Assembly (NCBI RefSeq): GCF_011319465.1
Contig: NZ_RCMB01000013.1
Location: 1 to 64,000 of the forward strand
Direction of reading: 5' to 3'
Length of the DNA: 64,000 nt
Origin: Candidatus Nitrosotalea sp. TS
GTDB taxonomy: Archaea; Thermoproteota; Nitrososphaeria; Nitrososphaerales; Nitrosopumilaceae
Shown here: positions 22,801 through 55,022 of the stretch, piece after piece
Position numbering within the stretch: the stretch's first letter is position 1
Layout of the letters: every line of letters begins with the position of its first letter
The notes under the pieces: model-generated
Told to the model about the DNA's origin: nothing
Seen by the model: the letters and a program-made list of their open reading frames with translations, nothing else
The model's database searches: none
Made by a program: the position numbers and the translations under genes

Positions 22801-24429
22801 GATTGCCTCGATACGGAACTGGTACAACGTACCGGATGTAAGACCTGATACTGTATATGATGTAGCGCTGCTAGCAGTGTTTGCAACAACAGGGCTCCAT
22901 GTGGTACCGCCGTCTGTCGAAGAATCAATCTCGTATCCAGTGATGCTGTAGCCATTTGAGATGGGGGCGTTCCATGATAGCGAGATCTTGTCCCCGGCAA
23001 GGGCGGATGCTGCAGGTGCTGTCGTTTGTGCAGGTACATTGTCATAAACAAGCACACGATTATTGTTTGTATCTGCAATAGCTAGTTTTCCGCTCGAGTC
23101 AAATGCTATTCCGCCTGGATTGTTCAGTGTGCTGGCAGACAGGCAGTTATTATTGTCATCGTCATGATTGTCATTGCCGCAATCTCTGCCCTGGTCCCTA
23201 TTGTTGTTATTTGATACAAAGTCACTCTGGCCCAGTACTACGGTGGCGGCTTCGTCAGTTGTAAATCCGCTTCCCTTTGAATACATCAATACTCGGTTGT
23301 TCTGCGAGTCTGCCACCCAGAGGTTTCCTGCAGAATCAAATGCTATTCCGCCTGGATTGTTCAGTGTGCTGGCAGACAGGCAGTTATTATTGTCATCGTC
23401 ATGATTGTCATTGCCGCAATCTCTGCCCTGGTCCCTATTGTTGTTATTTGATACAAAGTCACTCTGGCCCAGTACTACGGTGGCGGCTTCGTCAGTTGTA
23501 AATCCGCTTCCCTTTGAATACATCAATACTCGGTTGTTCTGCGAGTCTGCCACCCAGAGGTTTCCTGCAGAATCAAATGCTATTCCGCCTGGATTGTTAA
23601 GCGAAGAGGCAGACAGCTGATCCTCGTCGTTGCTCTTTGATGTAAAGCTGTTCTGGCCAAGAACCATTGTTGCAGCAGCACCATTTGTACCAAGGTTTGT
23701 TTTTGAATACATCAATACTCGGTTGTTCTGCGAGTCTGCCACCCAGAGGTTTCCTGCAGAATCAAATGCTATTCCGCCTGGATTGTTCAGTGTGCTGGCA
23801 GACAGGCAGTTATTATTGTCATCGTCATGATTGTCATTGCCGCAATCTCTGCCCTGGTCCCTATTGTTGTTATTTGATACAAAGTCACTCTGGCCCAGTA
23901 CTACGGTGGCGGCTTCGTCAGTTGTAAATCCGCTTCCCTTTGAATACATCAATACTCGGTTGTTCTGCGAGTCTGCCACCCAGAGGTTTCCTGCAGAATC
24001 AAATGCTATTCCGCCTGGATTGTTAAGCGAAGAGGCAGACAGCTGATCCTCGTCGTTGCTCTTTGATGTAAAGCTGTTCTGGCCAAGAACCATTGTTGCA
24101 GCAGCACCATTTGTACCAAGGTTTGTTTTTGAATACATCAATACTCGGTTGTTCTGCGAGTCTGCCACCCAGAGGTTTCCGCTCGAGTCAAAAACATTTC
24201 CTTGTGGAGAGTTCAGGGTATTTTGTGCAGTGTCCTTTTCCCCTTTTGAAGTAAAATTTGGTTGTCCAAGAACTGTGGCGGCAGGCTGTCCATTGATGAT
24301 CGCCCATGATACTACAGGTATAATTTCTAATCCCGCCAAGAGAAGTATAAATGAAAAGACTAGAATGGACTTGCAGAAAGAATCAAAATGAAAGACAGTA
24401 GCAAGTCGTGTCATAGCATATTTTCCCAC
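16827..24429 (-). CDS. Giant exported NHL / fibronectin-III / Ig-like surface protein (one frameshift)
   Basis: About 2,533 residues after removing one base at 20197-20198, which restores YSLGTDYTGMWTEP. Order: N-terminal signal or anchor (about residues 14-42); NHL beta-propeller repeats with GNLWVADSQNNRVLMYS (about 50-460); eight fibronectin type III domains (about 460-1290); seven Ig-like modules of the form DNP..GY.DGDTITVQFNEPTN; a beta-rich non-repeated part; and two C-terminal WIKNNAGWW modules common in thaumarchaeal exported proteins. No catalytic site is seen; adhesion or cell-surface structure is inferred. GTG at 24429 or ATG at 24414 may start it. The DNA looks more G/C-rich than its neighbours and contains near-identical repeats. 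Confidence 0.87.
21031..21324 (-). repeat. 294 bp FN3-encoding repeat, copy A
   Basis: Encodes one 98-residue fibronectin III domain plus linker beginning VPAQTTAPAASALAGDKISL. It is nearly base-for-base identical to 22441-22734 and 22735-23028, while neighbouring FN3 domains differ strongly. Such identity at silent sites indicates recent duplication or gene conversion. Confidence 0.85.
22441..23028 (-). repeat. Two tandem 294 bp FN3-encoding repeats, copies B and C
   Basis: Copies at 22441-22734 and 22735-23028 lie head to tail and match the separate copy at 21031-21324. Each starts at TGCAGGTACA and encodes 98 residues, so gain or loss of a unit keeps the frame. Copy number may be wrong in an assembly. 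Confidence 0.87.
23101..24189 (-). repeat. NHL repeat array, 237 bp (A) and 189 bp (B) units in order A-A-B-A-B
   Basis: In plus-strand order the units are A 23101-23337, A 23338-23574, B 23575-23763, A 23764-24000, B 24001-24189, each beginning AAATGCTATTCCG (the last ends where the match fades). A encodes 79 residues including an Asp/Asn-rich insert (CGNDNHDDDNNNC) that could bind Ca2+; B encodes 63 residues with TSKSNDEDQLSASS instead. Copies are essentially identical at DNA level and all lengths are multiples of three. Confidence 0.87.
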
Positions 24430-52537: not shown

Positions 52538-53338
52538 ATGTCAGAATCCACTCTGTTACCAGATGACCTTGGAAAAAAATTAGCAAAACGTGTTGATAAT
52601 CATCTTTTAAAAAATGAAAGACGTGGAACATCAGAGAAAGATATCTTTGACAAGAAAAAGGTCATGGACGACGTCTTGGACAGGACCTCAATAATGACCT
52701 TGTCCAAGTTGATAAATTCAGGAACCATAGCATATGTCAATGGTGTAGTCGGCTCTGGCAAGGAAGCCAAAATGTATTGGGCAGTAGACCGAGATGGAAA
52801 GGATGTTGCCCTCAAGATATACCTAGTAACGGCTTCAAATTTTAAAAAAAGAAAACCCTACCTTGTGGATGATCCAAGATTTACTCGCATAAAAAAAGGC
52901 ACAAGAAACATGGTCGAGCTTTGGGCACAAAAGGAATTCCGCAATCTGACCCAGTGTGTTAAACATGATATTCCCTCAATCAAGCCAATTCGTATTCTAA
53001 AAAATGTCTTGGTACTAGAATTTGTAGGGAAGAATGGCACTCCAGCAAAAACTCTGGTAGAATCAGAAATTGATGAAAATGACTATAAAAATGCAATTTC
53101 GATCATTTCCCAGCTTTATAAAAAAGCTGAACTTGTACATGCAGATTTCTCAGAATACAACATTTTCAAAACAGAAAGTGGTTTGATTCTTTTCGATCTA
53201 GGATCAGCTATTGATATACGACACAGAAATGCAAAAGAATTTCTTCAAAGAGATATCACAAATATTTCAAGATTCTTTGTCAAAAGAGGCCTGACTGTTG
53301 AACATCCATCAGATGTAATGGCAAGGATAACAAATTGA
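52538..53338 (+). CDS. Rio1-type serine kinase
   Basis: A 266-residue atypical kinase involved in small ribosomal subunit maturation. The P-loop variant GVVGSGKEAKMYWAVD, catalytic loop HADFSEYNIF and metal-binding LFDLGSAID are all present, with the Rio1-type N-terminus. Length is normal. ATG at 52538. The KTSC gene lies just upstream on the same strand. Confidence 0.94.
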   Translation: MSESTLLPDDLGKKLAKRVDNHLLKNERRGTSEKDIFDKKKVMDDVLDRTSIMTLSKLINSGTIAYVNGVVGSGKEAKMYWAVDRDGKDVALKIYLVTASNFKKRKPYLVDDPRFTRIKKGTRNMVELWAQKEFRNLTQCVKHDIPSIKPIRILKNVLVLEFVGKNGTPAKTLVESEIDENDYKNAISIISQLYKKAELVHADFSEYNIFKTESGLILFDLGSAIDIRHRNAKEFLQRDITNISRFFVKRGLTVEHPSDVMARITN

Positions 53339-53390
53339 GTTTTTTCTGTCGCTTCAACTGTCTTAAGTAGTATCATCACGTATGAATATC

Positions 53391-53397
53391 AGATATA
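53391..53397 (+). promoter_or_regulatory. TATA box of the 53420 microprotein
   Basis: ATATAAA lies about 25 bases before the ATG at 53420, the usual archaeal spacing for a leaderless transcript. Confidence 0.5.
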
Positions 53398-53419
53398 AAT
53401 GAAGAATTTTTTCAAATCA

Positions 53420-53558
53420 ATGTGGAACCCTAAACACAGAGGAACCTAGAGAAATACGTCAAATCGATAGTGAAGAAATGAAGGAAGAGACACATGAGTT
53501 AGAGCAAGTCGAGCAAGATGCGCAAGAAGACATCAGGGAAACAGAAGATGAAGAATAA
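53420..53558 (+). CDS. Acidic microprotein, about 45 aa (frame broken)
   Basis: A frame rich in Glu, Asp and Gln (EEPREIRQIDSEEMKEE, then HELEQVEQDAQEDIRE) runs to TAA 53556-53558 without a start. An ATG at 53420, 25 bases after ATATAAA, joins it if one C of CCC (53428-53430) is removed; 139 bases is 3n+1. The product would be a very acidic single helix. I do not recognise it. Confidence 0.52.
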
Positions 53559-53606
53559 TTCTGCAATAATATCAAAAATCCATGCCTAATTCTAGGAGCT
53601 AATTTC

Positions 53607-53711
53607 ATGGAAAGAGACAATTTTTCGAGACAAAACATGTGTTCTGATTGTAAAAGAACGAAATGTAAAGATGGATGCAATTGCGATTGTCATTGGGATA
53701 AGAATCGATGA
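53607..53711 (+). CDS. Cysteine-rich microprotein, 34 aa
   Basis: An unbroken frame from ATG 53607 to TGA 53711. It reads MERDNFSRQNMCSDCKRTKC, then KDGCNCDCHWDKNR: six cysteines (C12, C15, C20, C24, C26, C28) and one histidine among 34 residues, plus many Lys and Asp. This spacing suits a metal-binding (zinc or copper) or redox peptide, similar in style to tiny metallothionein-like proteins; that role is inferred. It follows the acidic microprotein on the same strand, 48 bases later. Confidence 0.55.
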   Translation: MERDNFSRQNMCSDCKRTKCKDGCNCDCHWDKNR

Positions 53712-53797
53712 GCCAAGGATCAATTATCAAAACTATTCCCAATCATCAAGTAATTCTAGACAATAATTACATGCTGGATAGCCATTGTCATCTCGAA

Positions 53798-53944
53798 CTA
53801 GATCACTTTGTCTATTGCTTTTCTTATGATGTCCTTTAGCTCCTCACATGTCATACTTTCTACATTTCTACCCAAACTTTCCTCAATCTGGCAAGTAAGT
53901 TCCTTCTTGATATCGCTGAAAATCTTTTGTTGAAGGTTGATCAT
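53798..53944 (-). CDS. Small helical protein, 48 aa, divergent from TFB
   Basis: From ATG 53944 the frame reads MINLQQKIFSDIKKELTCQI, then EESLGRNVESMTCEELKDII and ends KAIDKVI. It is amphipathic and helical with two cysteines and looks coding, unlike the non-coding extension upstream in the same frame. A TTTATTTTT stretch lies about 15-25 bases upstream. It shares a short promoter gap with TFB. Family not recognised. Confidence 0.6.
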   Translation of the reverse strand: MINLQQKIFSDIKKELTCQIEESLGRNVESMTCEELKDIIRKAIDKVI

Positions 53945-54011
53945 GGAATTCCAAAAATAAAGAATACCACCGTTCTTATTGCTTGACAGATATACAATAA
54001 GTGATAACATT

Positions 54012-55022
54012 ATGCTTTCTCTTGATTCTGATGCATACATGAAATGTGCTCGCTGTGGAAAGAGTGCCATGGTAACTGACGGTTCCACAGGAGAGAGGTT
54101 TTGTGGAGTATGCGGTTTTGTTGTCAATGAGCGAATAGAAGACTCTGGTCCTGAGAGACGTTCATTTTCAAAAGACGAACATGAGGACAGGTCAAGAACA
54201 GGCGGACCATCATCTCTTGCAATCCATGACATGGGTCTTGCAACAATGATAGGACATGACAATAAGGATGCGACCGGAAAGCCACTTTCAACTTCAATGA
54301 AGAGCACCATAACACGCCTTAGAACATGGGATAGCAGAAGTCAAGTTCACGAGTCCCAAGAGAGAAACTTTAGACAGGCATTCAGCGAGCTTAGCAGAAT
54401 GAAAGACAAACTTGCACTCTCTGATTCAGTGGTTGAAAAGACTGCATACATTTACAGAAAAGCATTAGAGAAAAATCTTGCAAGAGGCAGATCAATTCCA
54501 GGACTAATTGCCGCAGCAATGTACTTGGCATGTAGAGATACTGGCACTCCAAGAACATTGAATGAAGTAGCACGTCAAATTAACATAAAAAGAAAAGATG
54601 TGTCAAGATGTTACAGATTACTTTTAAAAGAACTTGATCTGAAAATGCCAGTATTAGATCCTATAAAATGCATGTCACGGATAGCAAGTCAAGCAGGTCT
54701 AAATGAAAAAGTAAAACGACAAGCTCTTACAATTTTAGAAGGCGCGAACAGGATGGAAATTACAGCAGGAAAGGATCCTATGGGACTAGCTGCCGCCGCA
54801 TTGTATCTTTCATGTGTCATAAATAAAGAAGATACAACGCAGAAAGTTATCGCTTTAGCAGCTGGGGTTACAGAGGTCACAATAAGAAACAGGTGTAAAG
54901 GATTACGAGAATTACTAGATATAAAAATGCCAGATAAATTGAATTCAAAGCTTGGTCGCCCTGAAAAATTCATGAGCTCAACGATCCAAATGATAGCACC
55001 TACCAAGTCAAATGAGATATAA
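54012..55022 (+). CDS. tfb: Transcription initiation factor TFB
   Basis: Archaeal TFIIB homologue. The N-terminal zinc ribbon (CARCG...CGVCG, about residues 12-36 from this start), the B-finger region (GPERRSFSKDE) and two cyclin folds (ESQERNFRQAFSELSRM to KMPVLDP; IASQAGLNEKVKRQ to the end) are complete. It recruits RNA polymerase to TBP-bound promoters and binds the BRE. A longer frame starts with TTG at 53979, but ATG 54012 lies about 24 bases after ATATACAA, so it is preferred (336 residues). Thaumarchaea carry several TFB copies. Confidence 0.94.
   Translation: MLSLDSDAYMKCARCGKSAMVTDGSTGERFCGVCGFVVNERIEDSGPERRSFSKDEHEDRSRTGGPSSLAIHDMGLATMIGHDNKDATGKPLSTSMKSTITRLRTWDSRSQVHESQERNFRQAFSELSRMKDKLALSDSVVEKTAYIYRKALEKNLARGRSIPGLIAAAMYLACRDTGTPRTLNEVARQINIKRKDVSRCYRLLLKELDLKMPVLDPIKCMSRIASQAGLNEKVKRQALTILEGANRMEITAGKDPMGLAAAALYLSCVINKEDTTQKVIALAAGVTEVTIRNRCKGLRELLDIKMPDKLNSKLGRPEKFMSSTIQMIAPTKSNEI

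Follow-up and report, generated by a model that had tools for sequence, protein, structure and literature searches.

The window analysed here, a stretch of 64,000 nucleotides from Candidatus Nitrosotalea sp. TS (contig NZ_RCMB01000013.1), carries between a RIO-domain kinase gene and a TFB gene a short frame whose translation is MERDNFSRQNMCSDCKRTKCKDGCNCDCHWDKNR, followed by TGA, with a core of six cysteines and one histidine (Table 1). The earlier note had pointed to an intact 34-residue, six-cysteine frame at 53607-53711 of the plus strand, and reading the translation confirmed it at exactly that position.

Table 1. Features around the microprotein gene (window positions) and the subfamilies of its protein family
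Feature	Position	Strand	Remarks
RIO-domain kinase, upstream neighbour	52538..53338	+	Pfam RIO1, E=1.1e-49
Acidic gene, 5' part, MKNFFKSMWNPKHRGT then stop	53399..53449	+	Reading frame differs from that of the open remainder, as the window has one base more than L004
Acidic gene, open remainder, MKEETHELEQVEQDAQEDIRETEDEE	53478..53558	+	Precedes the microprotein; also in 10 related loci plus L006
Upstream region, expected promoter elements	53567..53606	+	Putative; TTAATTAGG box of subfamily II missing
Cys6His microprotein gene (subfamily I)	53607..53711	+	34 aa, ATG start, TGA stop; homologues and selection
Transcription initiation factor TFB, downstream neighbour	53979..55022	+	Pfam TFIIB, E=2.8e-37; start codon may be further in
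Subfamily I			The window's own; ending CHWDxNR-like
Subfamily II			MNTxxSWxQKICSDCKRxHCQKGCNCDCHWEP-like
Subfamily III			MNTAPYWNKKxCSDCKRMKCQKGC[LIN]CDCHxLRDR-like
Subfamily IV			MSYYRxKxCEDCxRxxCxKGCNCDCHYEPRG-like
Subfamily V			GRSKRCLDCKKHRCxxxSCxCxCH-like

The small acidic gene (consensus ...EEMKEETHELEQVxQDAQEEIRETEDEE) is found upstream of the peptide in much of the window's genus. It was read in 12 of 17 loci (the window, L001, and L002, L004-L009, L016, L019, L020 and L055, L006 being nearly a copy of L005), with a gap to the peptide of 44-68 bases where measured, and was not seen within 330 bases upstream of the peptide in L003, L010, L011, L012 and L021. The frameshift in the window's copy (53399-53558) may be a real lesion or an assembly error. 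An inverted repeat (CCTAnnnnTAGG and variants) ahead of the window's start codon was inconsistent among the 23 copies compared and was dropped. On the minus strand, a frame of about 48 residues at 53798-53944, beginning NLQQKIFSDIKKELTCQIEESLGRNVESM, has counterparts in several relatives when these are inspected by eye, and had no match in Pfam.

The earlier note had also held that the composition of the frame is far from chance. Shuffling agreed with this only in part: among 40 dinucleotide-shuffled versions of the window, short frames with at least six cysteines in 20 residues appeared 0.33 times per shuffle, and twice at most, but five are present in the unshuffled sequence, the one at 53607-53711 included, so that cysteine density alone is weak evidence for a gene. 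Two of the four other frames fall within copies of one tandem repeat. This direct repeat of 300 bases, present in four copies at 22954-23916 (71-100% identity; spacing 237, 237 and 189), yields the two cysteine-rich frames out of context.

Gene status is shown instead by the conservation of the frame in relatives and by purifying selection in that frame. Over a 27-codon core, pN/pS was 0.110 in subfamily I (23 sequences), 0.233 in subfamily II (36 sequences) and 0.138 in subfamily III (27 sequences); members were gathered by their cysteine pattern, and change at the cysteine codons is therefore under-counted in these ratios. When the five other frames were read in subfamilies I-III, the ratio lay between 1.09 and 2.61 in three of them, and the remaining two were open in few sequences. 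For subfamily I, the three ranged from 1.26 to 1.57 and were open in 19, 7 and 20 of the 23 sequences; one antisense frame gave 0.20 and was open in 4 of 23 (0.28 and 7 of 36 in subfamily II), and another was open in a single sequence. A spurious frame, preserved accidentally or owing to an RNA or antisense gene that overlaps it, would be in keeping with the four equally cysteine-rich short frames elsewhere in the window, but among frames open in most members a low pN/pS was confined to the 53607-53711 frame, an Rfam scan of window positions 53000-54200 returned no family at its gathering score, and homologues occur across many species. That reading is already contradicted by these data and has next to no chance of being right. 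The frame at 53607-53711 is a real, conserved gene whose protein is under purifying selection.

Homologues were sought with the peptide in 101 genomes (relatives and its own) and with a 26-row profile in 400 genomes of the class. A lack of homologues in any relative had been named by the earlier note as grounds for discarding the gene; that objection fails decisively, since matches at E<=1e-4 were obtained in 120 of the 400 genomes (hand count), all of them within the window's own family, Nitrosopumilaceae. Only weaker matches were found in 33 further genomes of that family and in 59 others, and none at E<=1 in 188. The best match outside the family had E=0.0039, and the matches in other thaumarchaeal families (E 0.004-1), mostly short and partial, were not accepted as relatives. 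Named records with members include Candidatus Nitrosotalea, Nitrosopumilus, Nitrosarchaeum and Nitrosotenuis. The records L085 and L091 are titled Nitrososphaeraceae and carry typical subfamily II copies; the title of L091 may be wrong, as this genome is placed in the window's family.

The member set comprised 115 distinct members from 111 loci, with start codons ATG in 97, TTG in 10 and GTG in 7, one member being without a start; the start-codon rule favoured about 11 residues ahead of the first cysteine. Lengths ranged from 26 to 60 residues (median 34; 114 members with an assigned start). Copy number varies by genome, with up to 7 matches in one, and genomes often have several copies. Conversely, the profile found no peptide in the near-complete genomes G136, G155 and G164 of the same family, and in G163 a single match (E=5.8e-6) had a stop inside and was not accepted.

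Stops reported within matches were considered as signs of recoding or pseudogenes, a reading that was set aside once 18 such loci (L113-L130) had been inspected. In 14 of them the stop precedes the true start codon; it follows H29 directly in L128 and L130, and the core is truly broken in L127 and L129, both excluded from the family count. These two, together with L039, L052 and L072, form a group of degenerate, cut or broken copies with lost cysteines or stops in the core, which suggests gene loss.

A pattern scan that reached beyond the class gave 81 stretches. Sixteen were bacterial, shared only the CNCDCH letters without the upstream CxxC and were taken as chance, and 3 were thaumarchaeal but degenerate or cut (L039, L052 and L072). 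Viral contigs gave no match to the GCNCDCH pattern and, with a second pattern, two phage frames that appear unrelated. The latter (L173:5309-5332 and L174:4649-4672) are a short cysteine-rich frame with KCKGCFCDCHC and no upstream CxxC. The open-licence literature yielded nothing on the peptide's family or on thaumarchaeal zinc microproteins, and neither did the accessible parts of papers on copper transcriptomics, Nitrosotalea expression and Nitrosopumilus TFBs and promoters on the family.

The family core can be written C-x2-C-[KRN]-[RK]-x2-C-x(3,4)-C-x-C-x-C-H, usually followed by W, and in the window it reads C12-x2-C15-KRxx-C20-x3-C24-N-C26-D-C28-H29-W. In a 26-row alignment (A1), whose retrieval itself demanded part of the cysteine pattern, C12, C15, C26, C28 and H29 were invariant, C20 was replaced once by W and C24 once by S. 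A second alignment of 28 chosen rows (A2), covering all five subfamilies, had C12, D14, C15, C20, C24, C26, C28 and H29 invariant. The window member also aligned through the core with 41 others, with 12 invariant columns; this conservation of cysteines is partly built in, because the pattern behind the member set requires most cysteine positions. In a wider member, L122, Tyr replaces H29. The family splits into five recognisable subfamilies, labelled I-V here (Table 1), and the seven candidate ligands keep the same spacing throughout except for one added residue in subfamily V. Members of subfamily V were seen about 0.6 kb or less from a subfamily IV or III member in L105, L106, L170 and L172.

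Searches of domain and structure libraries returned no significant relative. Pfam gave no match for the window protein at E<=10 or for 42 members at E<=1, a test that is weakened by such short queries; PHROG gave no family, NCBIfam nothing beyond weak matches to unrelated entries (best E 0.68), and a sequence search of the PDB no significant relative. An AlphaFold2 model built on 42 rows had low confidence (mean pLDDT 57, pTM 0.24), and for this reason no fold is established. The family is thus not in the libraries searched, and in this survey it is found solely in Nitrosopumilaceae.

By its way of working, the closest known kind would appear to be the one-domain zinc-finger μ-proteins of Haloferax volcanii. 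In the accessible parts of the reports, these are described as proteins of fewer than 70 residues with a C(P)XCG motif, many per genome (PMC6562870, PMC11241148, PMC10716476), which mostly bind zinc and whose deletion leads to stress, biofilm and swarming phenotypes (PMC6562870, PMC11241148). The microprotein is likewise archaeal, single-domain, with clustered cysteines and, at 34 residues, within that size range. Unlike them, it lacks C(P)XCG, its sole CxxC (C12-S-D-C15) having no following G and the rest being CX4CX3CXCXCH; its whole array, CX2CX4CX3CXCXCH, occupies 18 residues, it belongs to another archaeal phylum, and the two are set apart by their descriptions. Because of the missing motif it was not filed as a member of that group. 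A resemblance to the fungal Zn2Cys6 binuclear cluster lies in the six cysteines and the basic KR turn past the first CxxC. The fungal spacing, however, is CX2CX6CX5-12CX2CX6-8C, and that of the microprotein is CX2CX4CX3CXCXC plus His, without a match in Pfam.

Gene contexts across the 111 loci were very diverse and shifted even inside one genus. Within 1.2 kb of the peptide, a TFB gene was found in 15 loci, Usp in 18, CBS in 20, Lrp-like in 5 and TBP in 2; 40 loci had at least one of these and 71 none. From gene densities in 20 genomes (per 1.7 Mb, 11.8 Usp genes and 8.2 TFB genes, the latter counted as one for every two TFIIB-repeat matches), chance would place TFB within this distance in about 1.6% of loci and Usp in about 1.9%. 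However, the loci share ancestry, and grouping them by shared neighbours for independent counts merged 93 of the 111 into one group, so that these statistics are only suggestive, a lead rather than a test. The Usp and CBS counts are dominated by a single syntenic block of subfamily III. In this subfamily, a gene of 73-74 residues ends a few bases from the start codon in 14 of 28 loci; a CBS gene lies within 1.2 kb in all 14 and a Usp gene in 12 of them. TFB is directly upstream in L024 (3 nt) and L012 (42 nt), and Usp in L163 (31 nt) and L164 (34 nt).

A second Cys/His microprotein gene (TQDTCPHDAKVKMAGYxxMYECTRCHKF) was found immediately downstream in 20 of 111 loci, namely in 17 of 41 of subfamily II and 3 of 13 unassigned, and in none of 23, 28 and 6 of subfamilies I, III and IV, respectively. 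This partner was found in 12 of 22 genomes, and not in the window's genome and the peptide-carrying G006, G037, G057 and G152, nor in G120, G136, G155, G163 and G164, which have no accepted peptide copy. Its members form a second family (L023, L025, L027, L032 and 16 more loci), the one scanned having no match in Pfam. A separate 45-residue protein, MILTNQLIIEEKLNDGCRCDCHYGGAISCPSCKENHGKHECPHCK, lies at L031:1471-1608 (G000:C13), and hits on one short stretch recur in open frames of about 46 residues in many congeners. In a good part of the loci, the neighbours of the peptide gene include TFB, Usp, CBS or Lrp-like genes or the second Cys/His microprotein.

Subfamily II copies share a promoter-like element. 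Of 41 copies, 33 have a TTAANTA box at a fixed place, -31 to -28 relative to the start; the box also occurs in this interval in 2 of 28 copies of subfamily III, 1 of 12 unassigned, 0 of 23 of subfamily I and 0 of 6 of subfamily IV; this position fits the TATA box of a leaderless transcript. A search of 13 genomes for a longer form, GTTAATTAGGNTGAA, gave matches in 9 of them. Each of the 7 exact matches is located 30-35 nt ahead of a family copy; of 9 matches with one mismatch, 2 are so placed and 7 are away from listed copies. The total of 16 matches compares with 58 for the reversed control pattern, so the longer form is not otherwise enriched. This extended specificity suggests a dedicated control of subfamily II.

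The function of the microprotein was weighed against several readings of the same data. Six thiols and a histidine could hold a Cu(I), Zn or Cd cluster with which the protein would store, deliver or detoxify metal instead of acting in regulation, and a buffer or chaperone of this metallothionein-like kind would fit the short, cysteine-rich protein, the packing of all seven residues, with C-x-C motifs and C-x-C-x-C-H among them, into 18 positions, the copy number that differs between genomes, and the copper dependence of the ammonia-oxidising hosts. A cupredoxin-domain gene of plastocyanin type (Pfam Copper-bind, E=4e-11) was also found, among the neighbours that were annotated, within 1.2 kb in 3 of 111 loci (L140, L151 and L167, two of which represent one shared context). 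Typical metallothioneins, however, have a higher cysteine content, no metallothionein profile was hit in the Pfam searches, and the conserved spacing, KR turn, tryptophan and other aromatic and basic positions would exceed the needs of a floppy thiolate scaffold. The other families of the class, which are in part also ammonia oxidisers, gave no match better than the E=0.0039 mentioned above. We therefore consider a metal buffer unlikely. The link to copper and ammonia oxidation drawn by the earlier note is not specifically supported, given that same value, the failure to detect the peptide in G136, G155 and G164, and the copy number of up to 7 per genome.

Still less probable is a redox or disulphide switch or a small Fe-S carrier, in which the cysteines would serve as thiols or cluster ligands instead of holding structural zinc. 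The even number of cysteines and the top PDB sequence matches, to 7Fe ferredoxin I over residues 10-31, agree with it, but these similarities are weak and local, with E-values (0.31 and 0.071) that fall short of significance, and the sequence has no CxxCxxCxxxCP motif of ferredoxin clusters. If small mobile modules carried the gene as a passenger or accessory, and its function were independent of its neighbours, this would account for the contexts that change within a genus, for the multiple copies and for the box that subfamily II brings along; an integrase-like frame was moreover read by eye in a cluster of three loci, at distances from the peptide of 1.8 kb (L035) and 2.2 kb (L063). Against it, the viral contigs yielded only the two seemingly unrelated frames, and the neighbours read were mostly ordinary chromosomal genes, so this reading is highly improbable.

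We favour, with moderate confidence, a functional gene at 53607-53711 whose product would be a zinc-thiolate microprotein with an adaptor role, both the metal and the partner being inferred. The core cysteines and His29 would bind one or two Zn2+ through their thiolates and the histidine, and the conserved basic KR turn and the aromatic residues would make up a compact, rigid surface for docking on a partner, which might be a regulator, TFB or nucleic acid. The protein would then be no enzyme but an adaptor in the cytosol that takes part in stress-responsive gene regulation. Against a zinc site, Haloferax proteins of similar size that are predicted to be zinc fingers may hold no metal or another metal, according to the accessible part of the report (PMC11241148). 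The suggestion of the earlier note that the frame encodes a tiny zinc or copper peptide is accordingly upheld for the small gene with conserved cysteines and histidine, which is well supported, and in a plausible metal chemistry, but copper is not specifically supported. A bolder and rather doubtful extension would make the family a portable regulatory cassette, that is, a short promoter-operator plus the Cys6His microprotein, repeatedly set beside Usp, CBS, multiple TFB, Lrp-like and TBP genes, in which a zinc- or redox-sensing adaptor might tune which TFB or stress regulator acts and either the peptide itself or a single dedicated TFB might recognise the subfamily II box.

In sea and soil, ammonia-oxidising archaea rank with the most abundant microbes, and much of their gene regulation is poorly known; about 8 TFB and 12 Usp genes per genome were counted in 20 genomes. 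The family would offer a handle of about 100 bases on gene regulation in these archaea. Short-frame filters in annotation tend to miss genes of this size, of which the microprotein family is an example.
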